This document shows, one piece after another, positions 9,071-39,344 of a stretch of DNA of 40,142 nucleotides (positions within the stretch are counted from its first letter, which is position 1; each line of letters begins with the position of its first letter). A program made the translations under genes and the position numbers. Source of the stretch: a virus. Where the stretch lies: positions 1 through 40,142 of IMG/VR virus record IMGVR_UViG_3300009149_007388; one strand, written 5' to 3'. The notes under the pieces were generated by a model that worked only from the letters and a program-made list of their open reading frames with translations, did not search any database and was not told where the DNA came from.

Positions 9071-9705
9071 CCTACGGCATACTCCCGGAATCTGTATCGG
9101 TCTAGGATCTCCTTCTCGTTCTGTGTGAGAACCTTCGGGGAACTGAAGAGTACGCCGACATCGCCACCGCCCGTAAGGACGGGTGTGATCAGGTCGGGGA
9201 GCATCCGGCGGCGGATTATCTCCGTCACGGCGTTGCTGCATATCTGGGCTGTGACGTATTGGATGTCGTGGGGGATGGTTCTGTAACCCCAGTCGCATAC
9301 GATGTCAACGTTTTGCCGTCCATTGTTGAAGCAGTTGTTTTCGTAGGTTACTATCTCGTCGTAGACTTGGAAGTCCGTGACCGTCTTGGCGACGCTGTCA
9401 ACGGTGACCGCAAAGATGGAGAGCATTGGGACGGGCATCAGGCGGGGAGGAAGAAAAGGTCCGCCAGTACCCACTAGCCCCACACGGGAGATGTGTTGCG
9501 CCTCTTTTCCCGAGCCATCGAGTCTGATTGTGCCATCATTCCACTGGAAGTTGTGACCGACGTAGTTGTCGATCATATCCATAGCCTTTGGGATAAGCGT
9601 CCCAGCCACCCAGTTGTTATAAAACGCTAAGGAGGCGAACCCCATTTGCCGGTACTCGACCTGACCGAAGGTTGCGACGTCAAACGTCCCACAGTATAGA
9701 CTCAT
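9067..9705 (-). CDS. Head-tail connector (adaptor) protein
   Basis: 212 residues. The order of an HK97 gp6-like adaptor is visible: an N-terminal helical part ending MDMIDNYVGHNFQW, a beta segment with DGSG, PVPMLSIFAVTVD, FQVYDEIVTYENN, a DWGYRTIPHDIQYVTAQICSNA(helix) segment and a charged C-terminal helix. The IP-x-DIQ-x-V helix start is characteristic. It binds the portal ring and forms the DNA exit channel. Its start overlaps the stop of the epimerase gene as TAATG, so the neck gene is translationally coupled to the sugar cassette. Confidence 0.75.
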   Translation of the reverse strand: MSLYCGTFDVATFGQVEYRQMGFASLAFYNNWVAGTLIPKAMDMIDNYVGHNFQWNDGTIRLDGSGKEAQHISRVGLVGTGGPFLPPRLMPVPMLSIFAVTVDSVAKTVTDFQVYDEIVTYENNCFNNGRQNVDIVCDWGYRTIPHDIQYVTAQICSNAVTEIIRRRMLPDLITPVLTGGGDVGVLFSSPKVLTQNEKEILDRYRFREYAVG

Positions 9706-10631
9706 TATTCTTCACTATTCCTGAAATACTTCACGGTAGCCTGAAGCCCCTCACGGAAGCCGACTGTGGGCACCCACCCGAGAAGACGCCGCGCCTTGTC
9801 GGCGTCTCCGCGGCTCTTCCAGAGCTCACCGGGGCGAGCAGGCGCATGCTCGATTTCATGTTTCGACCCCGTTATCTCCAATACAGCCTTGACGATCTCG
9901 TTCACCGTGACCGTCTTCCCCGAGGCGAGGTTGATTATCTCGCCGCCGAGGCCCTCCGTCAGGGTGGCTTCGATGACGCCCCGCGCCGTGTCCTTCACGT
10001 AGACGTAGTCGCGGCACTGCTCCCCACTGCCGAATACCACTGGCGGCTTCCCCATGAGGGCGAGGGTGGTGAATATCGCTATGACGGCGCCCTTAGATCC
10101 GTAGGATTGCCGGGGCCCGTACATGTTGAAGCCCCGGATTATCGTGATCTCTGGCTCGCCGTAGGTATAGTAGTAGCTCAGGCAGTACCGTTCGCCGGCG
10201 TATTTCGAGGCCGCGTAGGGGCTCCGCGTGTCGCAGAGGGCGGTCTCCTTCAGAATGCCCTCGCTGGACCCGTAGACCTCCGCCGTCGACATGTAGACAA
10301 GCTTCTTCACTGACGGCTCAACACGGGCCGCCTCAAGCAGGTTCATCGTGCCCCGGACGTTCGTCTCGTAGAACTCCAGCGGCTCCCGCCGAGAATGATC
10401 GACGTTGATCAATGCGGCTAAGTGAATTATGGCGTCGACGTCCTGGACGGCTTCGCGGCAGTCCTCGAGCTTCCGGAGGTCTCCGCACACGAACCCTATT
10501 TCATCGATCAGGTGCCTTACCTTGCCGGGTCGCATGCGATCAAGAACCCTGACCGTGTGTCCCTTCGCGAGCAGCATCTCGACGATGTGGCTTCCGAGAA
10601 AACCGGCGCCGCCGGTTACAAGTACCTTCAT
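9705..10631 (-). CDS. NAD-dependent sugar epimerase/dehydratase (extended SDR)
   Basis: 308 residues. The Rossmann motif GGAGFLGS (7-14), the dinucleotide-binding sequence continuing to HLAALINV, an STAEVYG segment and the active-site pair YAASK (Tyr and Lys spaced by three) are all present, followed by the GFNMYGPRQ and RDYVYVKD signatures of UDP-glucose 4-epimerase-like enzymes. It should convert a nucleotide sugar in the cytoplasm. It is the last gene of the glycosylation cassette and overlaps both neighbours (ATGA upstream, TAATG downstream). The exact substrate cannot be read from sequence. Confidence 0.85.
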   Translation of the reverse strand: MKVLVTGGAGFLGSHIVEMLLAKGHTVRVLDRMRPGKVRHLIDEIGFVCGDLRKLEDCREAVQDVDAIIHLAALINVDHSRREPLEFYETNVRGTMNLLEAARVEPSVKKLVYMSTAEVYGSSEGILKETALCDTRSPYAASKYAGERYCLSYYYTYGEPEITIIRGFNMYGPRQSYGSKGAVIAIFTTLALMGKPPVVFGSGEQCRDYVYVKDTARGVIEATLTEGLGGEIINLASGKTVTVNEIVKAVLEITGSKHEIEHAPARPGELWKSRGDADKARRLLGWVPTVGFREGLQATVKYFRNSEE

Positions 10632-11551
10632 TTAATTGATTTCATCCAAAAACTAATCGTCTTTTTCAGGCCCTCTTCTAAGGTATATTGCGGGCGCCAC
10701 CCCAAGACCGCTTCAGCTTTTTCATATGATCCTATTAGGACATCGATGTCTAGGGGTCGTCTGGGTTTAGTTCCCCACTCGATTTCACCTTCGAAGCCAG
10801 TGAGTCTTTTAATTAAGTGTACCAGTTCCTCGATTTTGACTCCCATCCCGGTGCAGAAGTTAAACGACTCCCCGATGGCCAGTGGATTATCTAGGCAGGC
10901 GAGATAGGCGCCCACATGGTCGTCCACGTACATGAAGTCCCTCGTGGGGGAGAGGTCGCCCATACTACAGGTCTTCTCGGTCAGCATCTTCATTATAGCG
11001 TGCTCGACGACGAAGTGATAGTCCCTCTTCCGCCCATAGGTGTTGAACGGTCTTAGAAGGGTCACGGGGAAGCCGTACCCGGCGCCCATGTATAGGAGGT
11101 ATTTCTCGGCGGCAAGCTTGCTTACGGCGTAAGGCGAGTTGGGGTTCTGGGGCGTACTCTCTGTCTTGATGTCGGGCCCGTTGCCGTATGTCTCGCTCGT
11201 CGAGGCGTAAAGGAATTGTTTAAAGTGAGGCACCTCCCTCATGCAGGCCTCGGCTAGGTTGACCGTTCCCTTCAGGTTTGTGTCAAGGACCTCGATCGGG
11301 TGTTCATAGCTGTATGACACGGGGCTTATCGCGGCTAGGTGTATGACGAAGTCTGGCTGGACCTGGCGGACGATGTTCTTCATGGCGAAGTATTCGCGCA
11401 GGTCAGCGAACACGGTCTTAACGTTCTTAGGCTTGGCAGGTCGCCCTGTCACGTATCGCTCCAGTGCCCAGACATCATACCCTTTCTCTGTCAGGCGAGG
11501 TATGATGTGGCTCCCGATGAAGCCGGAAGCCCCGGTTACTAGAACCTTCAT
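10628..11551 (-). CDS. NAD(P)-dependent nucleotide-sugar dehydratase/epimerase
   Basis: 307 residues of the same extended SDR family as the next gene but clearly divergent. Motifs: GASGFIGS (7-14), HLAAISPV, STSETYG, YAVSK active-site pair, RPFNTYG, RDFMYVDD. The TSETYG and early RYVTGRP residues lean toward GDP-mannose 4,6-dehydratase or a related dTDP/UDP-sugar dehydratase. Two such enzymes in a row suggest that the virus makes an unusual sugar, for example a deoxy or epimerised hexose, for use by the glycosyltransferases upstream. Coupled by ATGA overlaps on both sides. Confidence 0.85.
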   Translation of the reverse strand: MKVLVTGASGFIGSHIIPRLTEKGYDVWALERYVTGRPAKPKNVKTVFADLREYFAMKNIVRQVQPDFVIHLAAISPVSYSYEHPIEVLDTNLKGTVNLAEACMREVPHFKQFLYASTSETYGNGPDIKTESTPQNPNSPYAVSKLAAEKYLLYMGAGYGFPVTLLRPFNTYGRKRDYHFVVEHAIMKMLTEKTCSMGDLSPTRDFMYVDDHVGAYLACLDNPLAIGESFNFCTGMGVKIEELVHLIKRLTGFEGEIEWGTKPRRPLDIDVLIGSYEKAEAVLGWRPQYTLEEGLKKTISFWMKSIK

Positions 11552-12744
11552 TTACCTCTGTTCTCCTCAACTACGCGACTAATTTCTTCCTTGAAGCTCA
11601 TCCACCCCGGATCCTTCTCGTCGGGGTAGAAGTAGCTCTGGTGGACTTGGGCTATCCCGTATTTTTCGGGACTTGTCCACATGTCACTCCCAGGCAGGAG
11701 CGTGAACTTTGAAAGCGTGAATTTATCCGGTTTTATCTTTCTGATCATCTTGAGGGTGTCTTCCCGGTCTTTCTGTGTCTCCGTCGGGAAGTCGTACATG
11801 AGGAACGGCTTGAAGAGCATGTCTGCTTTCCTTATTTTCTCGGAGGCCTTGATGTAGGATTCGACTGTCTCGTTCTTGTTCATCAGTTTGAGGAGTCTCT
11901 CGGAGCCGGTTTCGACGCCTATGTTGACCTCGATGCACCCAGCTTTTTTCATGCCTGTAAGCATTTCGTCGTCTATGTGGTCGGCCCTCGTTATGCAGGC
12001 CCACGTTATTCCTAGGTCTTTTATTTCGGCGCACAGGTCTAGGACACGCTTCTTGATCAGGGTGAATGTGTCGTCAAGTATTCTGACGTGCTGGACTCCG
12101 TAGTCCTCTACTAGGAGGGCGAGTTCTTCCCTGATGTTTTCCGCTGATCTGTATCTGAACCTGGTGAACATTTCGTGGGCTTTCACGCAGAAGCTACAGC
12201 GGTAGGGGCAGCCTCTGGCGGTGATGATGGAGGACGCGGCGACGCCTTTCTCGCACCCGAGTATCCCGTCCATGTTGACCACCTCGTTATATGGGAAGAG
12301 GTGCCTCGCTGGGAACGGCAGAGAGTCTAGGTCTTCTATTACCCCGCCCTCGAGTATCCTGCCCTTCGGCTCGATGCAGCCGGACACCAAGTCCCTGAAG
12401 ACGTAGTCGCCTTCGCCGGTGACCACGAAGTCCGCTCCCGTGTCCTTAAGGGTCTGCTCTGGCTCGACGGTCGGGTGTACGCCACCTACGACGATCTTCC
12501 CGTCGATGAGTTTGCAGAGCTCAATCACCGGCTCGTAGGTCGCGGAGACGCAGGTTATGCCGTACCAGTCCGCGTCCGGTATCTTCACGTTCTCTAGGCT
12601 GTTGACGTCTGAAAGGTTCAGGATCTTCGTGTCGATGCCCGAGTTTAGAAGAGTCGAGGCGAGGTACGCCAGCCCGAGGGGCATGTACGCCTTGGGCGCC
12701 CTGAGCTCCGTCTGAGGCGGGTTTATGAGACATACTTTAGTCAT
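11548..12744 (-). CDS. B12-binding-domain radical SAM enzyme
   Basis: 398 residues. Residues about 1-130 form a cobalamin-binding-like domain (VCLINPPQTELRAPKAYMPLG, split at 4-24, and GGVHPTVEP) without the DxHxxG base-on motif. The radical SAM core follows with the cluster motif CPYRCSFC near residue 179, GITWACITRADHI, and GVETGSERLL (SAM ribose contact). Family members methylate or rearrange unactivated carbons in lipids, antibiotics and sugars. In this cassette it may modify the glycan or its lipid or nucleotide carrier; that is inference. The gene overlaps LicD-like and dehydratase genes by ATGA. Confidence 0.85.
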   Translation of the reverse strand: MTKVCLINPPQTELRAPKAYMPLGLAYLASTLLNSGIDTKILNLSDVNSLENVKIPDADWYGITCVSATYEPVIELCKLIDGKIVVGGVHPTVEPEQTLKDTGADFVVTGEGDYVFRDLVSGCIEPKGRILEGGVIEDLDSLPFPARHLFPYNEVVNMDGILGCEKGVAASSIITARGCPYRCSFCVKAHEMFTRFRYRSAENIREELALLVEDYGVQHVRILDDTFTLIKKRVLDLCAEIKDLGITWACITRADHIDDEMLTGMKKAGCIEVNIGVETGSERLLKLMNKNETVESYIKASEKIRKADMLFKPFLMYDFPTETQKDREDTLKMIRKIKPDKFTLSKFTLLPGSDMWTSPEKYGIAQVHQSYFYPDEKDPGWMSFKEEISRVVEENRGK

Positions 12745-13259
12745 AGCATAACGGGTCCTTTACTCGTATAGTCGCATGCGCTTCGTTTAGCCTTCCCCAG
12801 CCATGACCCGTCTGCGGCCTTAGCGTTGTACTCGGTGGGGGTTCTCCAGTCAAAGTAGAGGAACTCCAGATAGCCCTCTATTGGAGACGGGGTGTTGTAC
12901 GTTCTCCCCTCGTAAACGATGGTGTCGAATTTTCTAAAGTACTCATGGTGGAGTGGGCCGAACTTGTGCCACACATCCAGAAGCATACCGTCTCTCCCGA
13001 AGTTGATGTTAGCGAATAGGCGGCCGCCATCCGCGATTCCCTTCTTAAGCAGACCTGCGGCTAGTTCCTCTACCCTCTGGGGATCGCATAGCACGCCTAC
13101 GTCTATATCAGAATCGGATTCAATGTATCCCTTATCCCGGTGGAAACCCAGACAAGTCCCCATGACGAGGAAGTGGGGAATGTTCAGTTCGGTGCATACA
13201 TCGTCCCAGTCCTCAAGCAGCTTATCCGCCTTTTCCTTTGCCGTGAATGGATGTATCAT
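12741..13259 (-). CDS. LicD-like nucleotidyltransferase-fold enzyme
   Basis: 172 residues from the ATG at 13259. The core FLVMGTCLGFHRDKGYI followed by SDSDIDVGV is the LicD/fukutin-like signature: a glycine-rich turn, a basic residue, then the metal-binding DxD-type aspartates. LicD-type enzymes transfer phosphocholine or similar phospho-groups to surface sugars. Substrate is unknown here. It lies between the FkbM methyltransferase and the radical SAM gene, so addition of a phospho-substituent to the virus-directed glycan is a fair inference. A longer open frame upstream lacks conserved residues. Confidence 0.75.
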   Translation of the reverse strand: MIHPFTAKEKADKLLEDWDDVCTELNIPHFLVMGTCLGFHRDKGYIESDSDIDVGVLCDPQRVEELAAGLLKKGIADGGRLFANINFGRDGMLLDVWHKFGPLHHEYFRKFDTIVYEGRTYNTPSPIEGYLEFLYFDWRTPTEYNAKAADGSWLGKAKRSACDYTSKGPVML

Positions 13260-13294
13260 CGTTATACATTTCCTTCTACTATGCCTTTTTCGTG

Positions 13295-13972
13295 TTAATG
13301 GACGACTTTGTATTCCTTTTTGTCCGGCAGCTTTAACCATGTCTCGCCTTCATCTTTTCTTTCCGGTAAACGCTCCGCATATACTAGGTTCTCTTTTTGA
13401 TGGACTACTCTATACCCCTTTTCGTCGAGTAGCCTTAACAGTTGATTCCGGTCAATCCCGAAGCGGCTATGCTCGTCGATTACCATCTTATCGGGAAACA
13501 TCTTAGTCATGCCTTCGAGAAACTGTATCTCCGCTCCCTCCACGTTTACCTTTGCCAGCTCGACGCTTCGCAGCGTAAGTGTATCGACGAGGTCGTCCCA
13601 AGAGATCACTGGGACGATCCTTTTCCCGAATAGTAGGCGGGATCCTGTTAAGACCGTTGAGTGGGCGTTTTCTCCGCCCAAGTTTAGATAGGTCCTACCT
13701 GTCTCCTTTCCTATCGCCATGAAAAGCGGGACGACGTTGCTGAGCTTGTAATGTATTAACTTGTCCATTAGCCGGCGGAAGTTCCATATCTCAGGCTCCA
13801 AGGCGATGACAACCCCGGCCTTCCCCACCTTCTGGGAGAAGAAGAAGGTAGCCTCCCCGATGAAGGCGCCGAGGTCGATTACGACGTCGCCGTAGTCAAC
13901 GGGGAAGTAGTCAAACCACTTTGTCACCGGTCTCCAACTCCCCGACCCACTTCGGCATGGGAATCCCTTCAT
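13295..13972 (-). CDS. FkbM-family SAM methyltransferase
   Basis: 225 residues if the ATG at 13972 is used, but that overlaps the upstream glycosyltransferase by 62 bases; a GTG at 13927 with GGAG just upstream would give 210 residues and keep all motifs. Motif I VVIDLGAFIGEAT, the acidic loop VIALEPEIWNFRRL, and the late signature SWDDLVDTL then LAKVNVEGAEIQFLEGM are typical of FkbM O-methyltransferases acting on sugars. It probably methylates a glycan hydroxyl in the cassette pathway. Confidence 0.8.
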   Translation of the reverse strand: MKGFPCRSGSGSWRPVTKWFDYFPVDYGDVVIDLGAFIGEATFFFSQKVGKAGVVIALEPEIWNFRRLMDKLIHYKLSNVVPLFMAIGKETGRTYLNLGGENAHSTVLTGSRLLFGKRIVPVISWDDLVDTLTLRSVELAKVNVEGAEIQFLEGMTKMFPDKMVIDEHSRFGIDRNQLLRLLDEKGYRVVHQKENLVYAERLPERKDEGETWLKLPDKKEYKVVH

Positions 13973-14714
13973 GATCGCACATCAGTTTTAAAACACGGTC
14001 ACGGCCTATTATCTGCTCAGCCCTATATACATCGCTTAATTGACGTTTATGAAGTCTAAGGGCGGCGGTTATCTTATCAACATACCTTATCCTGTAGCCG
14101 TTGATGAGGAACCGATACCAAAGCTCTAGGTCTTGACAATAGTCGTAGTCAGAGTCGACGTTGAAGTAGAAGCCGGTAAGCTCCTTCAGTTTTTTGAACG
14201 CCGACATCCTTATTAGGACGGTGGGCTGGCAGACCGTGTTCCCATATGTTCCGAGATATTTTAGGCCGAAATATCGTTGTGTCCCGTAGACTGTTCTGCC
14301 TTTCGCTGTCCCTATGATTTTGGCGTCAGAGCAGATCAACGCTACGTCGGGGGGCTCCTTTTTCAGTTGATTTGACATCACGTAGAACCAGTAATCCTGG
14401 TAGTAGTCGTCGGCGTTGATCCACCCTAAGTGCGTCGTGTCGGGATATTCTTCTTCGATGATCTTCATGGCGTGGTTAATGGCAGGCGTCTGCCCCTCAC
14501 CCGGCACTATGTGTTGAATAATTTTATCCGCGTGGCGCCTTAGAACGGAGAGTGTCTCATCCGTCGAGCCGCCGTCCATAACCAGGTGGTTCACCTTGAG
14601 GAGCCCATGCCGCTGTTTGTCGATGGACAATATGCATTCCTCAATGTATCGCCCGAGGTTCATAGAGGTCGTTATCACGGAGAGCTCTGTAGGCCTCAAG
14701 TCTTGTCGCCTCAC
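13911..14714 (-). CDS. GT2-family glycosyltransferase
   Basis: 267 residues, GTG start overlapping the upstream stop as GTGA, with GAGGT close upstream. GT-A fold motifs are clear: SVITTSMNLGRYIEECILS at the N-terminus, VMDGGSTDETLS, GEGQTPAINHAM, and the metal-binding triplet in LGWINADDYY, then DLELWYRFL (catalytic base region). It should transfer a sugar from a nucleotide donor to a growing glycan in the cytoplasm. Confidence 0.85.
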   Translation of the reverse strand: MRRQDLRPTELSVITTSMNLGRYIEECILSIDKQRHGLLKVNHLVMDGGSTDETLSVLRRHADKIIQHIVPGEGQTPAINHAMKIIEEEYPDTTHLGWINADDYYQDYWFYVMSNQLKKEPPDVALICSDAKIIGTAKGRTVYGTQRYFGLKYLGTYGNTVCQPTVLIRMSAFKKLKELTGFYFNVDSDYDYCQDLELWYRFLINGYRIRYVDKITAALRLHKRQLSDVYRAEQIIGRDRVLKLMCDHEGIPMPKWVGELETGDKVV

Positions 14715-16780
14715 GTTACCTCGGCTATAACTTCACGGAGGACGCCGAGCATGTGGTCATATGAATAACACTCTCGAATCGTCTTCGCCGCGGAGTCGCC
14801 CATCGCCTCCCAGTTCTTAAGCAGTTCACCGGTCTGCTCCGCGATGCTCTCCGGCGTAGGGTCGGCGATTAGCCCGTTGACCCCGGGGGTTATCATGTTC
14901 AGCGTGCCGTGGCAGTCGCTGAGTACCAGCATAGAAAGGCCGCAGGCCATCATCCCCTTCTGAGCTACAGAGCCGCCTTCCCACTGTGAAGTCAGGAATC
15001 CTATCTTAGCCTTGTTGATTAGACCGGGAACCTCGGAGTACTGGCATCCGTTTATGAAGTCTATACGGTCACTAATGTCTAGTTTCTCGGCGAGGGCTAT
15101 GCACTCTTCGTGGTAGCTTGGCGGTAGGGATCGCTCGAACCGGCCTAGCAATAGGAGGCGGCCGGGGATGTCCTTCCATGCCTCGATAAGCAGGTGTTGT
15201 CTCTTAATCCTCTTTCTGAAATCCGCTACCATTATTCCCGTGTATGTCTTCTCGGTATGTAACGGCTTGAACATGTCTAGTTTAACGCCGTAGGGTAGAA
15301 CCTTAATCCGGTCGAGCGGGATGCTGCTTATCTTCGACGCTGGGCGCATGAGATACTCCTGCTGGAAGAACATCATGTCGATGTCCTGGACGATGGAGGT
15401 CGTCAGCGATATGTTGCCGAAGTGCATGATTGACTTCCACGTATCCGGGAAGGACCTGACGATATGCGCCCATAGGGGGCTCTCAAAGGAGTGCAGCAGG
15501 ATCATGTCGGGGGCGAAGCGCTTCAGCTGTATTATGACATCTTTGTAATGTCCGAACCTGTAGAACTGTATGTTTTGTCCGCCGTATATCTTCCGTGTCG
15601 CAACGTCCCTGTCGGTGGGCGCGAATAACTGCACCACACATTCTTTTGAGAGCTCAGAGACGGCGTGTTGGTGGCTGTCCTGCTTGTTCTCCCAGAAACC
15701 CTTATGGAAGTCAGGGTATCCCCATATGAAGGCTAGTCGGGGCTGACCTTCATGACTCCCGACTGTATCATACAGGAACTCGTACTTCTTGACTGACTGG
15801 TCGACTGTGAATCCTTCGAGGATAGTCTGACGGGCGTTATCCGCGACGGCTATGTCGACGCCCGGAAGGTTTTCGCTCACCCAGTCAACGAGGTTCACGC
15901 CCTCTGGGATGAGGTGGCCGTTGAAGCCGTCCTCGATGACGTATGGAGTGTCTCCGACGCTCTCGGAGACGACGCAACACCCGCACGACATCGCCTCAAG
16001 GATCGTGAGCGGCATCGCCTCGCTTATCGATGTGAACAGGAAGTATTGAGAGGTAGATAGTAACTCTGCCACCTCTTTCTCGGATAGCCCTGTCTTGACC
16101 TTCAGGTTCGTAGGCAGATCCCGGATTATCTCCTCGTAAGTATCGGTCTTGCCGTCACCGATCATGGTGAAGCTGTATTTCGGTAGCCGGCGGGCGATCT
16201 CGGGGATGAGGCTGGCGCGCTTCCCCGGGTGCATTCGTCCCACCCATGCGACGGTTTTAGGTGTCTTCGGGGCTGGTTTGAATATGTCCGGTGAGACGCC
16301 GTTTCTGATTACTGTGACGTCAGGCAGAGCCTTCCGGTTTACCTCTGCGTCTGTCACCGACGCCCATAATCGGGGTTGCACCTTCTCCAAGAACTGGATT
16401 TCCCGGGGATAGGAGTCGCGGTGATAGTTTATGTCTACGCATAGTGTCGTCATTATTTTTAGCTTAGGGAAGACCCGTCTTAGCCGTGGGATGATGTCGT
16501 ATAGGCCCCACAGGTTGAAGAAGTGAACGACATCGTATCCGTGCTCCCTGATCACGGTGAATATGGCGCCGTAGAGGTCCCGCTCTTCCATCATGCCCTG
16601 GGCGTAGAAGAGGTTGTCGCTGTACCGTTCGTATTCGCCGTGAAGGGAGCCCCGCTTATGGGTCATGAGGACGTCCTTCCGGAAGCGGGTGTCGTCCATG
16701 TTCTTCAGCAGCCGTTTTAGTACAATCTCTTGGCCGCCGATGGTAGTGTTAGCCGAGACGAATAGTATTCGCGTCTTCAT
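14711..16780 (-). CDS. Tandem GT4-type glycosyltransferase (two GT-B domains)
   Basis: 689 residues from the ATG at 16780, one base after the preceding stop. Two complete GT-B domains are fused. Domain 1 (about 1-340): SANTTIGGQEIVLKRLLKN acceptor loop, VAWVGRMHPGKRAS, then SEAMPLTILEAMSCGCCVV with the E-x7-E motif. Domain 2 (about 345-689): RLAFIWGYPDFHKGFW, a second Rossmann half IMVADFRKRIKRQHLLIEAW, and SQWEGGSVAQKGMMACGLS, in which the second Glu of E-x7-E is missing. Domain 2 may therefore have altered donor binding or low activity. Two linkages, or one plus a binding role, are possible. Confidence 0.85.
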   Translation of the reverse strand: MKTRILFVSANTTIGGQEIVLKRLLKNMDDTRFRKDVLMTHKRGSLHGEYERYSDNLFYAQGMMEERDLYGAIFTVIREHGYDVVHFFNLWGLYDIIPRLRRVFPKLKIMTTLCVDINYHRDSYPREIQFLEKVQPRLWASVTDAEVNRKALPDVTVIRNGVSPDIFKPAPKTPKTVAWVGRMHPGKRASLIPEIARRLPKYSFTMIGDGKTDTYEEIIRDLPTNLKVKTGLSEKEVAELLSTSQYFLFTSISEAMPLTILEAMSCGCCVVSESVGDTPYVIEDGFNGHLIPEGVNLVDWVSENLPGVDIAVADNARQTILEGFTVDQSVKKYEFLYDTVGSHEGQPRLAFIWGYPDFHKGFWENKQDSHQHAVSELSKECVVQLFAPTDRDVATRKIYGGQNIQFYRFGHYKDVIIQLKRFAPDMILLHSFESPLWAHIVRSFPDTWKSIMHFGNISLTTSIVQDIDMMFFQQEYLMRPASKISSIPLDRIKVLPYGVKLDMFKPLHTEKTYTGIMVADFRKRIKRQHLLIEAWKDIPGRLLLLGRFERSLPPSYHEECIALAEKLDISDRIDFINGCQYSEVPGLINKAKIGFLTSQWEGGSVAQKGMMACGLSMLVLSDCHGTLNMITPGVNGLIADPTPESIAEQTGELLKNWEAMGDSAAKTIRECYSYDHMLGVLREVIAEVT

Positions 16781-16781
16781 T

Positions 16782-17567
16782 TTAGACGCGGCCCCAGACA
16801 AAAGCATCTACGTATTCTTTTGGCATTGAGTTTGTGGTTACGATGGTGTCGTCAGATTTGATGTACGACGTGTTGTCCGGAGGTCTTCCCTGTATAGCCT
16901 CAAGTGGAATCTGGTGCAGGCCGAATGGCTTGGTATCTAGGTGGTAGACGCTGATCCTCGGGTCGGCCCATATCTTGAAGCCCTTGGCCCGTGCGTTGTT
17001 GCAGAATGTCCGGTCTGGATAGGGATTGTTGATCTCCGTTTCCGTGAAAGACTCGCGTGTGGCTAGCCAACAGGTGCCGACGGAGTCTACCTCGAAAGTT
17101 ATCCCCGGTTTAGGTGGATCGAATGGATGGAAGCGCAGGCCCTTGTACCGGAAGACGTCCGTGTCACGGAAGGTGAGCGGCTTCTGCGCCTCGACCCATA
17201 CGTAGGGGGCGATGACGTCTTTTTTCTGCTTCTTCAATGACGTGATGAGTGTTTTCGGCAGCTTCACGACGTCGGCGTCGACCGACAGGAAATGCGTCTC
17301 GTCGCCTTCCCGCATTATCTCTTGGAGCTCCTTGTAGACGGGGGCGATCTGGGCGCTTGACAAGGCCTGCATCGGGGGCTCTCTGTATATCTCGACTGTG
17401 AGGGGGGCCTCTTCCTCCCAGTCCTTCAACAGGTTAAGTGTTTCATCCACGCTCGGCCCATAATAGAAGACGGCTCTGGAGACGCCTTTCAGCTGCCCTA
17501 GGCCTTCGAGGAATCGTTTCAGCCAGATTTCGGCGTTCTTAACGGGGACCCCGACGAGTGTGCTCAT
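16782..17567 (-). CDS. GT-A-type glycosyltransferase (GT2-like, DxD)
   Basis: 261 residues. GVPVKNAEIWLKRFLEGL at the N-terminus, FYYGPSVDETLNLLKDW, and the metal-binding HFLSVDADVVKLP define a GT-A fold; VDSVGTCWLATRESF and the later DPRISVYHLD complete it. The pattern resembles glycosyltransferases of the Anp1/mannosyltransferase type as well as GT2. The start ATG overlaps the stop of the methyltransferase-glycosyltransferase fusion (TAATG), and the stop is one base before the tandem GT4 start. Confidence 0.75.
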   Translation of the reverse strand: MSTLVGVPVKNAEIWLKRFLEGLGQLKGVSRAVFYYGPSVDETLNLLKDWEEEAPLTVEIYREPPMQALSSAQIAPVYKELQEIMREGDETHFLSVDADVVKLPKTLITSLKKQKKDVIAPYVWVEAQKPLTFRDTDVFRYKGLRFHPFDPPKPGITFEVDSVGTCWLATRESFTETEINNPYPDRTFCNNARAKGFKIWADPRISVYHLDTKPFGLHQIPLEAIQGRPPDNTSYIKSDDTIVTTNSMPKEYVDAFVWGRV

Positions 17568-19645
17568 TAAAGTATCCTCCTCTCAGCCCGGGTCTTCGGG
17601 CGCAGGTCCTCCCTGAGCTCCTCGATCAGTTTGAACCATAGGGGAACCACCACCTTTTTCCAGTCGTAGTTTAACGAGAACTCCCTTGCCTTCTCGCCGT
17701 ATTGTCTCATTTTGTCGGGGTTGTTGTAGGCGTCCTCGAGGGCCTCGGCGATCTCATACTCGTCCGGGATGGCCCACTTGCTCATAAGGATCGTCGTCTT
17801 GTATGAGTCGAAGCCGCCGGCGTTCTTCAGCGTGTTGACTAGCCATCCGTGTCCCTCGATAAGCTCCGTCATGGAGGTGAAGCGGGTTCCGATGGTCGGC
17901 ACTCCGCAGGCGCCGGCCTCGATGATGGGTATGCCGAAGCCCTCGGCTTGGCTGGCGTTCAGCAGCACGTCGAAGGCGCCGTACATCTTGGATAGGTCTG
18001 CCGAGATCATGCCGCAGTACATGGAAAACGGGTTCGTGACCCGTATGTACTGGGAGACGTTGTGTATCTGCGCTAGGTGTCCCAGCGGGTACGCGCCGGG
18101 GAAGTTCTTGTTGGCGTGAATGTGCATACGGGTGTCCCCACGGGCGTCGGGGTTCTGGTCTAAGAATATCTCAAGCGCCACGAAGTCCCGGTCGAAGCCT
18201 TTGCGCAGGGTGTCCTTATTGGACGCGACTTTGCCGATGATGAAGGAGCCCTCAGGCCAATCCAATCCCTCGTTCGGCATAAGCGTCTCGGAGAGTTTAA
18301 AGAGATCCTTGCTGTCCCGCACCTTATCTTCAGACGGGAGGAAGACCTCGGTGTCGACGCCGTGGGGGATGTACTCAGTCGGGATGCCCTCCATCTCAAG
18401 TTGGCGGCGACCGAACTGGCTCATGGCCACGCATTGGTACGCCTGCCTCGCCTGGTTGATTGTCGGCGGCGGTATTGGGTCATGGTCGACAGGGAAATAC
18501 GCGACCCATTTAGGGTTGATCTTCGTGAACCAGTTCCGCTCCCCGGCGAGTAGTGGGGAGTCCCCGATCCAGATGTCGAAGAGCGTGATCATGATGTCGG
18601 GTCTCCAGTACCGGTGGACGAGTTTGGCGGCGTCTATACCGTAGGGGTCGAACATCCTAGGATAACAGATTAGGTTATTGAATCCGAGGGCGGCGCCCTC
18701 AAGGCCATAGTAAGAGAGAGCCCGAACATCGTAGTGCTCGTTGAGCGGGTAGACGACGCCCTTGGTGCCGACGCCGTAACCTGTCGGCGCCCACGGGCTG
18801 TTACTCCACCAGAGAATCTTGAAGTCCTTACCGCCTGGTTTAATCGTGACAGGGACGACAGTGTCGACGGTCGGAGGGAGACGTGTCTCCCGGAGGTACA
18901 TTGTGACGCCGTGGTCGTGCTTGTCAGGCCACCGGCTGTCGTATTTAACTTCGGGGTAGATGAACTCGTTTATGCGGATCGGGTCGAAGCCGCGGCGCAG
19001 GAACTCGGTTATCCACCACTCCTTTGAGTAGATTGAGACGTGAGTCGCATCGGTGCCGTGGCTCTGGTCAGGCTGCGTGTCGTCGATGTCAATGGGGGTA
19101 TCAAAGACGATTACTTTACCGACTCTGCATCCTTCATCTATCGCATGGTAGAGGTCGGGGACGCGGATGTGTTCCCAGATGTCTAGGGCGATGACGACGT
19201 CGAACTCCTTGTCACCCCACATTCTGAGGTCGCATACGTCGCCGCAGTAAAGTTGGTCTAGGACGGGCTCGGCGCCGTGCTCGATCGCCCACTCGCTTAT
19301 ATCCACGCCGACGGCGTTGACGCCCCGCTCTTGAAACGCCTGAACCATGTAGCCCCTGGCGCAGCCGAGGACTATGGCGCTCTTTATTCCCTTAAGGGAG
19401 TTCAGAATGGTATTGACTAGATTTCTGTCTCTTTCGAGGTAGAACTCTTCCGTGTAGGGAGTGAATAGCATCTTATCGGTCACCGGGTCTCGGCGGCCGT
19501 AGTTGCTGCCCTCGGCGCGGAGGAAGTAGCCTTCACCGAATATCTCAGAGGGGGCGCTTCCCGCGAACTTTTTTTCACTAGAACGTTTTACTTGACTTTT
19601 TTCTTTCTCCAAATTCAATGTCTCCAGAATCGGTTTATACTCCAA
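17567..19645 (-). CDS. Fused SAM methyltransferase and GT4 glycosyltransferase
   Basis: 692 residues; TTG start with no strong ribosome binding site, so the exact start is uncertain. Residues about 75-250 are a class I methyltransferase (AIVLGCARGYMVQAF, GVDISEWAIEHG, FDVVIALDIWEHI). Residues about 275-690 are a GT-B glycosyltransferase (WWSNSPWAPTGYGVGT, a PTEYIPHGVDTEVF linker, GKVASNKDTLRKGFD, ASQAEGFGIPIIEAGACGVP with intact E-x7-E). This is the first gene of the cassette, 52 bases after the capsid gene; a small hairpin lies in between. The fusion could cap or methylate a sugar and extend it. Confidence 0.85.
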   Translation of the reverse strand: MEYKPILETLNLEKEKSQVKRSSEKKFAGSAPSEIFGEGYFLRAEGSNYGRRDPVTDKMLFTPYTEEFYLERDRNLVNTILNSLKGIKSAIVLGCARGYMVQAFQERGVNAVGVDISEWAIEHGAEPVLDQLYCGDVCDLRMWGDKEFDVVIALDIWEHIRVPDLYHAIDEGCRVGKVIVFDTPIDIDDTQPDQSHGTDATHVSIYSKEWWITEFLRRGFDPIRINEFIYPEVKYDSRWPDKHDHGVTMYLRETRLPPTVDTVVPVTIKPGGKDFKILWWSNSPWAPTGYGVGTKGVVYPLNEHYDVRALSYYGLEGAALGFNNLICYPRMFDPYGIDAAKLVHRYWRPDIMITLFDIWIGDSPLLAGERNWFTKINPKWVAYFPVDHDPIPPPTINQARQAYQCVAMSQFGRRQLEMEGIPTEYIPHGVDTEVFLPSEDKVRDSKDLFKLSETLMPNEGLDWPEGSFIIGKVASNKDTLRKGFDRDFVALEIFLDQNPDARGDTRMHIHANKNFPGAYPLGHLAQIHNVSQYIRVTNPFSMYCGMISADLSKMYGAFDVLLNASQAEGFGIPIIEAGACGVPTIGTRFTSMTELIEGHGWLVNTLKNAGGFDSYKTTILMSKWAIPDEYEIAEALEDAYNNPDKMRQYGEKAREFSLNYDWKKVVVPLWFKLIEELREDLRPKTRAERRIL

Positions 19646-19651
19646 GACTAT

Positions 19652-19666
19652 CCCGTAAAAAGCCGG
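19652..19666 (-). other. Small hairpin between capsid gene and sugar cassette
   Basis: On the transcribed strand CCCG GCTTTTTA(C) CGGG can form a 4-bp stem in the 52-base gap after the capsid stop. It is too weak to call a terminator. It may mark an mRNA processing or attenuation point that keeps cassette expression below capsid expression. Low confidence. Confidence 0.25.
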
Positions 19667-19697
19667 GAGGAAAGAAGGTAGAATTTACTTAGAAGGG

Positions 19698-20927
19698 CTA
19701 ACCTTCGAAGGTGTGTATCCAGAAGATACCGTCAGGGTGTAGACAGACTCCGCCGTACTTGATGTCGGCGAGAACCCAGCGCTTTTGCAGGCGTGGGCTG
19801 TACTCAGTCTCGATCGTTATGCCGTGCTTCAAGGCGCCGGCTAGGGCGCCCTTCGCGAGCAGCAACGTCCTGTAGGTTCCGCCTGTGCCGGTGAGTTGCA
19901 GGGTGCCCTTCGGCGTGACGTTAATCTCCATGCCGTAGGCGGTTTCTAGCCGTCCGCCGGTGACGACGTCACGGGCGCCGAACTGGTTGGCGTACCTGAA
20001 GTTGGTGTCCTGCATCAGCGATATGTGGGGTATTGGGTGCATGATCACTTTGACTGGGTCGTAAGTTCCAGCCTGCATGCTCCCCATTGCCTCAAGCAGC
20101 AGAGAGCCGGACATTGCTCCGGTGTGTGTCATCGTTCCAGCGTTATCGCAGCTTAGGGCAATGCCGAAGAAATAGTTGTCAACACAGACTTCTAGGCAGC
20201 TTCCAAGCGACTCGTTGATGGCGTCAACGAGGCCGTACTGTACGGTCTCGATGTCGTTCTTACAGATCGCATAGGCACAGACGTCGTGTTCGAGCTCGAT
20301 ATAGGGGCACGCGATGACCGGGGCCACGGTGTCCGGCTCGTCACATTCTAGGTCTACGCAGAGCGCAGGTGCAACCCGGGGAATGTATATCTTGGCGCCG
20401 GGCCTTCCCTGTATCTCGGTGTACCAGTTCATGAAGCTGGCGCCTAGGAACACCGAGCCGGGGTAGACGTGATCGCGCTCGATCTTGTCGCTCCACACCT
20501 CGGGGATTGCGCAGTTGTTTCCGCCCTGGGCAATGGTTCCGATGGCTTCGGTGAGGCTCTCGTTGAGCTTCAGATTATACGTGGTTTCCTGCGTCTCCTT
20601 ATCGTAACCTCGAATGACGATGTCCTCGACGAGTCTCTGGTTATTCCTTAGATCGTCGCTTTTCCGTAGTTTGTAGTCGTCTGATGTAATCATTCTGGCG
20701 CCGCGGCTGGTTTCCCTGAGCATCTCCTCGATGGGAGCTCGCCAGTCCCAGTCCTCGACTATGTGGCCGAATTCGCCGATGCTCTCCGTGAGGCCGGTTG
20801 TCTCCTTCTTCGGTGTAAGGCGTTCCTCTAGGGCTTTGAACTCTTCCTCGATCTTTGCATGTATGTCTCCGGTAAATTTTGACAGGTTGATCTTGACGGT
20901 AGTTCCTTCTAATTCTTGGTCAGACAA
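19698..20927 (-). CDS. Major capsid protein (HK97-fold candidate)
   Basis: 409 residues from a TTG at 20927. I choose this start because GAGGTG lies six bases upstream and the protein then begins MSDQELEGTTV; an upstream GTG at 21017 would translate hairpin repeats and has no ribosome binding site. The N-terminal 100 residues are charged and helical, as expected for a delta/scaffold-like region. The rest (FGHIVEDW, AIPEVWSDKIERDHVYPGSVF, GASFMNWYTEIQGRPGAKIYIPR, YGLVDAINESLGS, then VKVIMHPIPHISLMQD and the DVVTGGRLETAYGMEINVTP segment) has the domain order of capsid proteins: E-loop and P-domain, then A-domain with a position-fixing His-Pro segment. It follows protease-scaffold and tail-tube genes. 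Confidence 0.8.
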   Translation of the reverse strand: MSDQELEGTTVKINLSKFTGDIHAKIEEEFKALEERLTPKKETTGLTESIGEFGHIVEDWDWRAPIEEMLRETSRGARMITSDDYKLRKSDDLRNNQRLVEDIVIRGYDKETQETTYNLKLNESLTEAIGTIAQGGNNCAIPEVWSDKIERDHVYPGSVFLGASFMNWYTEIQGRPGAKIYIPRVAPALCVDLECDEPDTVAPVIACPYIELEHDVCAYAICKNDIETVQYGLVDAINESLGSCLEVCVDNYFFGIALSCDNAGTMTHTGAMSGSLLLEAMGSMQAGTYDPVKVIMHPIPHISLMQDTNFRYANQFGARDVVTGGRLETAYGMEINVTPKGTLQLTGTGGTYRTLLLAKGALAGALKHGITIETEYSPRLQKRWVLADIKYGGVCLHPDGIFWIHTFEG

Positions 20928-37978: not shown

Positions 37979-38131
37979 CTAGGATTCGTCCTTCCTTATC
38001 TTTATCCTCACGGGGGTTCCCTGCTTCAGGTTAAGCCTCTTCCTGTACGCTAGAGGGACGGTGACCCTGCCCCCCTGGCAGATGTTGGCTAGGAACTCCT
38101 CCTCTATAATCTTCTCCAAGACCATCTCCAT
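37979..38131 (-). CDS. AbrB/SpoVT-type transcription regulator
   Basis: 50 residues from the second of two ATGs, TAG stop. LANICQGGRVTVPLAYRKRL and NLKQGTPVRIKIRK form the swapped-hairpin AbrB fold: a GRVTVP strand-turn, the YRKRLNLKQG helix and a final VRIKI strand. Such dimers bind DNA near promoters. It is first in the leftward block, its promoter faces the rightward TRAM promoter, and operator-like CCCATTAAATGG sites lie at both, so autoregulation is likely. Confidence 0.7.
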   Translation of the reverse strand: MEMVLEKIIEEEFLANICQGGRVTVPLAYRKRLNLKQGTPVRIKIRKDES

Positions 38132-38203: not shown

Positions 38204-38232
38204 TTTAAGCGGCGATGCAACCCATTAAATGG
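38204..38232 (+). promoter_or_regulatory. Promoter P1 with operator-like site, rightward block
   Basis: TTTAA at 38204-38208 in ACCTTTAAGCGGCGATGCAA, followed by CCCATTAAATGG at 38221-38232, where the transcript start is expected. The TATA-to-operator spacing (15 bases from TATA centre) equals that of the opposite AbrB promoter. A bound dimer would block both promoters. Confidence 0.65.
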
Positions 38233-38273
38233 CTGTAAGAAGGAGTTGAAGTTAGTTATGAGAGGTATGTTTT

Positions 38274-38699
38274 TTGAGTGAATTAAAACAACTACGTTTA
38301 GGAGATAAGATAACCGTCCACACGGTGCCTGGGAGAGATGGTAAGCCAATAGGTCGGCTATCAGATGGATGTATAATATTATTCGACCAGGAAAACCAAT
38401 ATTTCAGAATGCTGGCTCCAGGCCAGTCTGTGGAATGCCATGTGACAGTCATAAGCGAAAAATATGTCATCGTGAGCCCCATAAGCGAGCCCGAGCCGGA
38501 GGTTATCGAAACTTATCCAGAAGAAGATTTCCCAGAGATCGATGTTGATGACATCGTAAATGATCTGGAGAAAATGGTAAAAAAGTTATCCAAGAAATCC
38601 GGGAACGCAAAAGTTATCCCCAACGCCCTTCTACACGTAATCCGGCTTGAACAGCTAATTATAAAGATTCTAAAAGGTAAAAAATACGAAAAATACTGA
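38274..38699 (+). CDS. TRAM-domain RNA-binding protein with helical tail
   Basis: 141 residues; TTG start with GAGGT seven bases upstream. Residues about 5-70 form an OB-like TRAM barrel: LRLGDKITVHTVPGRDGKPIG, split, GCIILFDQENQY, LAPGQSVECHVTVISEKYVI. Then an acidic linker (EPEPEVIETYPEEDFPEIDV, split) and two charged helices. Small TRAM proteins act as RNA chaperones in archaea. It is transcribed from P1 and precedes the first ncRNA copy, so RNA binding to those transcripts is a testable idea, not a fact. Confidence 0.65.
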   Translation: MSELKQLRLGDKITVHTVPGRDGKPIGRLSDGCIILFDQENQYFRMLAPGQSVECHVTVISEKYVIVSPISEPEPEVIETYPEEDFPEIDVDDIVNDLEKMVKKLSKKSGNAKVIPNALLHVIRLEQLIIKILKGKKYEKY

Positions 38700-38714
38700 A
38701 CAACTTATAATAAA

Positions 38715-38722
38715 CTTTAAGC
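38715..38722 (+). promoter_or_regulatory. Promoter P2 of ncRNA copy 1
   Basis: CTTTAAGCGGTGTTGCA in which TTTAA (38716-38720) lies 25 bases before the first G of the ncRNA closing stem at 38743. It is preceded by an AT-rich stretch and the stop of the TRAM gene (38699). Confidence 0.6.
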
Positions 38723-38742
38723 GGTGTTGCACTCCATGTTTT

Positions 38743-38904
38743 GGTGGGGAGGGCTATGGGCCTAATGGAGACATGTGATCCTGGATGTCGGGTAAATCGT
38801 TGCAGGGAGGGGCTTGTAATCGCCCTTTTCATGACTCGGCCAGGCGAGTACCTGCTCCCGGGTTTTTACACCCCTTGCTCCAGGGCCGGCAACACTCCCC
38901 AACC
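38743..38904 (+). ncRNA. Structured ncRNA candidate, copy 1
   Basis: About 162 bases with no convincing coding frame. Closing stem GGTGGGGAG (38743-38751) with CTCCCCAACC (38895-38904, one bulge). Second helix GGCC...TGGAG (38759-38770) with CTCCA...GGCC (38878-38887). A hairpin ACTCG-GCCAGG-CGAGT (38834-38849) whose loop can pair with CCTGG at 38780-38784 as a pseudoknot. A variable GGGC/GCCC hairpin between. Own TATA promoter; the 5-prime stem begins at the expected start. Closely related to copy 2 at 39163. Family unknown to me. Confidence 0.65.
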
Positions 38905-38916
38905 CGTCACACAACC

Positions 38917-38921
38917 TTTAA
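38917..38921 (+). promoter_or_regulatory. Promoter P3 of the 58-residue gene
   Basis: ACCTTTAAGCGGCGATTAATACC just after the ncRNA copy 1 end; TATA centre about 45 bases before the ATG at 38964, leaving a short leader with GAGGAAG. Confidence 0.6.
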
Positions 38922-38963
38922 GCGGCGATTAATACCATCCTACAACTGTGAGGAAGCAAGAAT

Positions 38964-39140
38964 ATGGGTAAGGATACTATAATCGTTCTACCAGACGGCT
39001 CTAAGTGCGAAATAACTCCAAAGGGAATAAAATTCATAGAGGATATAGAGAAGTTCTTCGCGGAACTGGGCATACCCAAAGAAGACATTCCCTCATACTT
39101 GGGGAAACTAGCAGACCCCGAGCGAGCAAGTAACTTTTAA
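38964..39140 (+). CDS. 58-residue protein, unknown function
   Basis: MGKDTIIVLPDGSKCEITPK, then a helix pair (GIKFIEDIEKFFAELGIP, EDIPSYLGKLADPERAS). ATG with GAGGAAG eight bases upstream; the TAA overlaps the TATA box of promoter P4. Beta-hairpin then helices; no family recognised. It lies between the two ncRNA copies. Confidence 0.6.
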   Translation: MGKDTIIVLPDGSKCEITPKGIKFIEDIEKFFAELGIPKEDIPSYLGKLADPERASNF

Positions 39141-39141
39141 G
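39135..39141 (+). promoter_or_regulatory. Promoter P4 of ncRNA copy 2
   Basis: TTTTAAGCTGTGACACTAACC; TATA centre about 26 bases before the first G of the copy 2 stem (39163). It overlaps the preceding stop codon. Confidence 0.55.
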
Positions 39142-39162
39142 CTGTGACACTAACCATGGTTT

Positions 39163-39308
39163 GGTGGGGAGGGCTAGAGGCCTAATGGAGCCAGCGGAAC
39201 CTGGATGTCGGGGAATCGTTGCAGGGAGAATGACATTGACTCGGCCAGGCGGGTCCCTGCTCCCGGGGATTTTCACCCCTTGCTCCAGGGCCGGCAACAC
39301 TCCCCACC
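39163..39308 (+). ncRNA. Structured ncRNA candidate, copy 2
   Basis: About 146 bases, closely similar to copy 1 apart from a 16-base shorter variable loop (AATGACATT in place of the GGGC hairpin). Closing stem GGTGGGGAG (39163-39171) with CTCCCCACC (39300-39308) is perfect here. Helix two GGCC/TGGAG (39179-39190) with CTCCA/GGCC (39283-39292). Hairpin GACTCG-GCCAGG-CGGGTC (39238-39255), where U-A of copy 1 becomes U-G, keeping the stem; loop again complementary to CCTGG (39200-39204). Confidence 0.65.
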
Positions 39309-39319
39309 CTCTCGTAACC

Positions 39320-39324
39320 TTTAA
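39320..39324 (+). promoter_or_regulatory. Promoter P5 of the right-end gene group
   Basis: ACCTTTAAGCGGTGATTCATACC; TATA centre about 25 bases before the GTG/TTG at 39345/39348, so the first mRNA may be leaderless. Confidence 0.6.
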
Positions 39325-39344
39325 GCGGTGATTCATACCTTTTA

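Follow-up and report, generated by a model that had tools for sequence, protein, structure and literature searches.

A covarying RNA family with two copies in a virus genome and further copies in chromosomes of one Bathyarchaeia family

Related RNAs and known families

Omega RNA and HEARO RNA, the guide RNAs of IscB and TnpB, are structured and pseudoknotted and sometimes occur as many standalone copies. GOLLD and ROOL are large structured RNAs of phages and bacteria, of unknown function, which are found in host and virus genomes. To our knowledge, few structured regulatory RNAs beyond the universal ones are known in archaea, and few in archaeal viruses. The RNA described here has two copies in the window, which is the whole stretch of DNA analysed, the 40,142-base IMG/VR virus record IMGVR_UViG_3300009149_007388 with tailed-virus genes including those for terminase and a tape-measure-like protein. 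Like omega RNA and HEARO RNA, the viral and archaeal RNA is structured, pseudoknotted, and multicopy at standalone loci; however, it has a terminal closing stem without an evident guide, it has no match in Rfam, and G001, the genome richest in copies, has no TnpB domain. It resembles GOLLD and ROOL as a structured RNA present in host genomes and a virus, but it is much shorter, has no Rfam match, and is multicopy in one archaeal family. The bacterial sRNA LhrC of Listeria (PMC4132741) likewise has more than one copy per genome, while the present RNA is pseudoknotted, archaeal, and virus-borne. TRAM0076 of Methanococcus is reported to be an RNA chaperone (PMC6705878), and the protein linked to the present RNA is predicted to have an OB fold like that of TRAM0076 and could be RNA-binding; unlike TRAM0076, the viral protein has a C-terminal helical region and adjoins a dedicated structured RNA, and the abstract of PMC6705878 mentions no such RNA partner.

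Rfam 15, which includes SRP RNA, RNase P RNA, ribozymes, and riboswitches, gave no match at gathering scores, and a search with a permissive filter gave only a spurious snoRNA match (E 4.8). ARAGORN recognised neither viral copy as tRNA or tmRNA. A sequence-only reading of the window had proposed an undescribed structured ncRNA that is not SRP RNA, RNase P RNA, or tRNA; these searches agree on what the RNA is not, and the absence of an Rfam match together with covarying homologues bears out the rest. Nothing similar to either copy was found in phage and plasmid collections, none of the other IMG/VR contigs matched the five patterns tried, and no description of the RNA family was found in the open-licence literature. 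No described family fits, and “categorically new” is meant in that sense, with no claim of a new biochemical principle.

Fold of the RNA and its covariation

The RNA copies, their helices, the promoter motifs, the TRAM-like gene, and the 58-aa ORF described below all lie on the plus strand of the window. Copy 1 is a long-hairpin subtype of approximately 162 nt (38742–38904), found by alignments and by a covariance-model match of 170.2 bits, and copy 2 is a short subtype of approximately 146 nt (39162–39308, or to 39309 by the covariance model) with a match of 161.7 bits and 41 of 41 model pairs formed. The sequence-only reading had placed two near-identical copies here, and both were located by the model. 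The details it gave are also present in the copies, namely a closing stem that is perfect in copy 2 and has one bulge in copy 1, the hairpin loop GCCAGG with a CCUGG partner, and a change from U-A to U-G. The size difference, which it had confined to one variable hairpin, lies mostly in that region, but there are single-base indels elsewhere too.

Single-sequence folding of the two viral copies gave z values of -1.9 and -2.1 against shuffles, and because this gain is modest the two copies alone are insufficient proof of structure. Covariation was examined in 20 full copies with a fold of 41 pairs (the model fold plus two pseudoknots) that comprises the closing stem, inner helices, hairpin, and loop pseudoknot. 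In this fold 95.8% of cells are paired, and both partners are changed in 11 of the 41 pairs and in 15 cells; 0 of 500 shuffles equal these values or the covariation score, and pairing falls to 41–56% when the partners are slid by 1–3 columns. Homologues of the viral copies thus covary above shuffles, as would be expected from the earlier reading.

In copy 1, the 5′ strand of the closing stem P1 (38743–38751) pairs with 38895–38904, with one A bulged and four of nine pairs changed on both sides; P1 is shorter by one base per side in L049. The 5′ strand of P2 (38759–38763) pairs with 38883–38887, and two of its five pairs are changed on both sides, with GGCC/GGCC becoming GACC/GGUC in L018 and AGCC/GGCU in L011. 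P2b, which follows this strand (38766–38770), pairs with 38878–38882. The P7 hairpin CUCG[GCCAGG]CGAG (38835–38848) has 98.8% of cells paired and two of four pairs changed on both sides, as in L009, where CUCG/CGAG is replaced by UCUG/CGGA. The CCUGG at 38780–38784 pairs with CCAGG of the P7 loop (38840–38844), and this pairing is kept as ACUGG/CCAGU in L016 and as CCUAG/CUAGG in L018 and broken in a few copies; taken alone, the loop pseudoknot has both-sided changes in two of five pairs and a covariation score equalled by 6 of 500 shuffles. A possible second pseudoknot between GUUGC (38799–38803) and GCAAC (38889–38893), with one compensatory copy (L043, A-U), was set aside as weak because 49 of 500 shuffles were as good. 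The helices have 43 G-U against 17 A-C combinations, a difference whose significance is indicative only since the copies are related, and this excess favours action of this strand as RNA. The family is very probably a conserved structured RNA.

Promoter motif, distribution, and the viral block

In 14 of 20 copies a TATA-bearing TTTAAGCGGTGAT-like motif starts 25–28 nt before the RNA, most often at exactly 26 nt, as an archaeal TATA element should. Approximately six of the 20 have no recognisable promoter motif. The motifs of the viral copies, TTTAAGCGGTGTTGC for copy 1 (38716–38730) and TTTAAGCTGTGACAC for copy 2 (39136–39150), both have their first T at -26, in agreement with the earlier claim that each copy has its own promoter. 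The same motif is found upstream of the TRAM-like gene (38204–38218), and close matches on the viral plus strand cluster at 38.2–39.3 kb. Unexpectedly, the motif also occurs directly downstream of the RNA, within approximately 12 nt in 11 of 20 copies and at 30 nt in a twelfth, compared with an expectation of approximately 0.06 per such stretch. In the window these downstream motifs are at 38917–38929 for copy 1, which is also a promoter position for a 58-aa ORF between the two copies (38964–39140, no family match), and at 39320–39332 for copy 2, also a promoter position for the next small ORF. Other examples are in the flanks of L014, L007, and L012, and at some loci the gene beyond the downstream motif is convergent, which leaves the motif with no obvious gene to drive.

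In G001 there are 21 exact matches to the 15-mer, and most of them are on contigs that also carry RNA copies or fragments. G008, a complete genome of 1.5 Mb, has eight occurrences (with at most two mismatches) at six separate sites, three of which are no more than 2.5 kb from its single RNA relic; 0 of 200,000 random placements do so. A genome-wide promoter was considered and rejected, since the motif is concentrated around RNA loci instead. The extended TATA-type motif TTTAAGCGGTGATGC, which frequently occurs as two tandem copies, is seen at window 38204–39332, at G008:C1 941682–945334, and on contigs C48, C72, and C99 of G001. Clustering of TTTAAGCGGTGATGC near RNA loci and a limited gene set may reflect a dedicated promoter class.

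A 27-base stretch of the 3′ end led to four contigs of two Bathyarchaeota MAGs, and homologues were then collected by DNA search (G001, G002), by GTDB family searches (G009, G020, G007, and relics), and by the covariance model. There are 12 full copies in G001 (QDN_4), four in G009, and one each in G002, G007, and G020. With the covariance model, five of 257 genomes of the class have full copies, all in one GTDB family, and the 252 others have none. Several fragments accompany the full copies of G001 in the DNA search, partial copies accompany that of G020, and short relics are found in G006 and in G008, which is complete and has no diverged full copies. The 12 copies per cell in G001 are an upper figure, because this 3.1 Mb MAG has near-duplicate segments and may mix strains. 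Archaeal copies have ordinary chromosomal neighbours, such as genes for transporters, hydrolases, a ParB-like protein, and TBP (names read from sequence, with only TBP matched to PF00352), and the G001 C156 and G002 loci have the same downstream gene, so some loci look inherited with their neighbours. The RNA is missing in most genomes of the GTDB family and is thus not essential. It is highly likely that the RNA belongs mainly to the host lineage. Use of the copies as marks of rearrangement was rejected: their neighbours often differ from those in G008, but so do most adjacencies.

The viral RNAs and the TRAM-like gene form an accessory block. A contig that is 99.5% identical (L087) ends inside the RNA block, and related viruses are syntenic up to approximately window 37350. 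The covariance model found no RNA in the parts of related viruses examined, of which only L094 covers the corresponding region, and L094 does not have the accessory block at its syntenic end. Among the archaeal copies, the viral pair is split between branches, with weak support, and this separation favours uptake from a host rather than duplication inside the virus. Because the RNA is present up to approximately a dozen-fold in related archaeal chromosomes, it looks like host RNA machinery picked up by the virus. The window virus is inferred to be a tailed virus of Bathyarchaeia from the RNA, motif, and protein in common. Tailed viruses of Bathyarchaeia have been published (PMC10848311), in a text without the words “noncoding” or “promoter.” The window also has many genes for glycosyltransferases, NAD-dependent epimerases, and radical SAM/B12 proteins (9705–20000), and a small AbrB/MazE-like ORF (37979–38131) that adjoins the RNA block has distant relatives on RNA-bearing contigs (L028, L136).

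The TRAM-like protein and explanations for the RNA

The gene directly upstream of copy 1 (38274–38699) encodes a 141-aa TRAM/OB-fold-like protein, the proposed partner of the RNA, with bathyarchaeal homologues that are 35–58% identical. The window protein has no Pfam match, and its G009 homologue has a weak match to Pfam TRAM (E 0.038). The predicted N-terminal fold (mean pLDDT 78.8), which is followed by a C-terminal helical region, matches TRAM/OB RNA-binding domains, among them that of the TRAM protein MMP0076 (1yvc), with an rmsd of 2.3 Å over 67 columns and a Foldseek E of 3.8e-3. G009 has the closest homologue of the viral gene, with two motif copies upstream, on a contig other than those bearing the RNA. 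None of six orthologues checked, from G001 and five genomes without full RNA copies, has the motif upstream, and G001 has only an ordinary TRAM-like protein without the motif. In the complete genome G008 the sole RNA relic adjoins a decayed TRAM-like gene with an internal stop. The ribonucleoprotein proposal comes mainly from this linkage in the virus and G008, and from the apparent joint decay in G008, at few loci.

In the preferred explanation, some Bathyarchaeia have a structured ncRNA family of approximately 150 nt as a native part of their chromosomes. The majority of copies would each have a separate transcript from the TATA promoter, and the fixed spacing suggests that it starts where the 5′ strand of the closing stem begins. 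The RNA folds into the stem-closed core with a loop pseudoknot, as covariation shows. The RNA probably acts in trans as half of a ribonucleoprotein whose other half, judging by gene linkage, would be the TRAM-like OB-fold protein, with a promoter motif in common between the two genes. The virus would have taken two divergent copies and the TRAM-like gene from a host as an accessory block, presumably supplying or rewiring host machinery. That the RNA works with the TRAM-like protein is a tentative proposal from sequence, and the fuller account of a lineage-restricted host structural or regulatory RNA, probably in such a complex and acquired by the virus, is put forward just as tentatively. A new archaeal class of ribonucleoprotein, with multicopy RNA and TRAM-like protein under one dedicated promoter class and captured by a virus for host control, would be unlikely on these sequences. 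An RNA family that covaries strongly, reaches up to a dozen copies in one MAG, has a promoter class to itself, and also exists in viral form would amount to a new RNA system in Bathyarchaeia, an abundant and largely uncultured class, and a promoter and RNA common to virus and archaea would help to connect viruses with their hosts.

The strongest competing explanation is a dispersed selfish element resembling a SINE or MITE, in which a promoter-RNA unit spreads via chromosomes and viruses and the structure serves its own propagation. Such an element would account for the presence of 12 full copies, along with fragments, in a single MAG, the patchy distribution, the truncated relics and inverted-repeat ends, the motif on both sides of many copies, and the two separate viral copies. 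Against it, the RNA fold is under selection in most copies, as the compensatory changes and the G-U bias show, some loci (G001 C156, G002) seem inherited alongside their neighbours, no target-site duplication was seen by eye, and no mobilising enzyme is linked. A selfish repeat is possible but rather unlikely. Insertion sites compared with G008 are too diverged to show empty sites.

An improbable alternative is a viral effector RNA for anti-defence, decoy, or packaging, with the archaeal copies as remnants of related viruses. The two copies with their own promoters in a viral accessory block are consistent with this, but the archaeal copies lie among ordinary chromosomal genes, the five patterns tried matched no further contig in IMG/VR, and the related viruses examined do not have the RNA. 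The suggestion in the sequence-only reading of a virus-specific packaging or anti-defence RNA does not hold for a family that is mainly chromosomal, multicopy in one Bathyarchaeia family, and absent from those viruses; nothing here points to an anti-defence role of the viral copies.

A cis-acting leader controlling the gene behind it is quite improbable. At two paralogous G001 loci the RNA, which has no promoter of its own there, precedes a TBP start codon by approximately 25 nt, and 5′ fragments precede ORFs at several loci; against a leader or riboswitch, there is no constant downstream gene except at those two loci, the next gene is convergent at several loci, and most copies have their own promoter. 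Still less can be said for a standalone omega RNA guiding a TnpB/IscB/Cas12-type nuclease, which is very improbable: the RNA is pseudoknotted, GC-rich, and multicopy at standalone loci, but the TnpB-type domain PF07282 is absent from G001 with its 12 copies, G007, and G020 and is found in G009 and G002 only on contigs other than those of the RNA, and many copies have the promoter motif as their 3′ flank, with no evident guide. A small protein gene starting at the conserved AUGGAG, with a 55-aa ORF in one viral copy and a 48-aa ORF in the other, is refuted as the main explanation, since three of 14 copies stop after 16–18 codons in this frame, the conserved 3′ blocks occupy all three frames across copies, and conservation follows the helices.

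RNA copies or relics lie beside TBP genes in varied orientation at G001:C48 17368–18111, G001:C65 1837–2617, G001:C71 2495–3551, and G009:C5 1274–2302. RNA-bearing genomes tend toward several TBP genes, but more than one is also found in several genomes without the RNA, so TBP copy number was rejected as a marker of the RNA, and the adjacency at four loci remains. At L019, L020, L021, L023, and L024 the promoter and first 30–40 nt of the RNA occur alone; several of these fragments directly precede an ORF, and the AUG of UAAUGGAG is a possible start codon.
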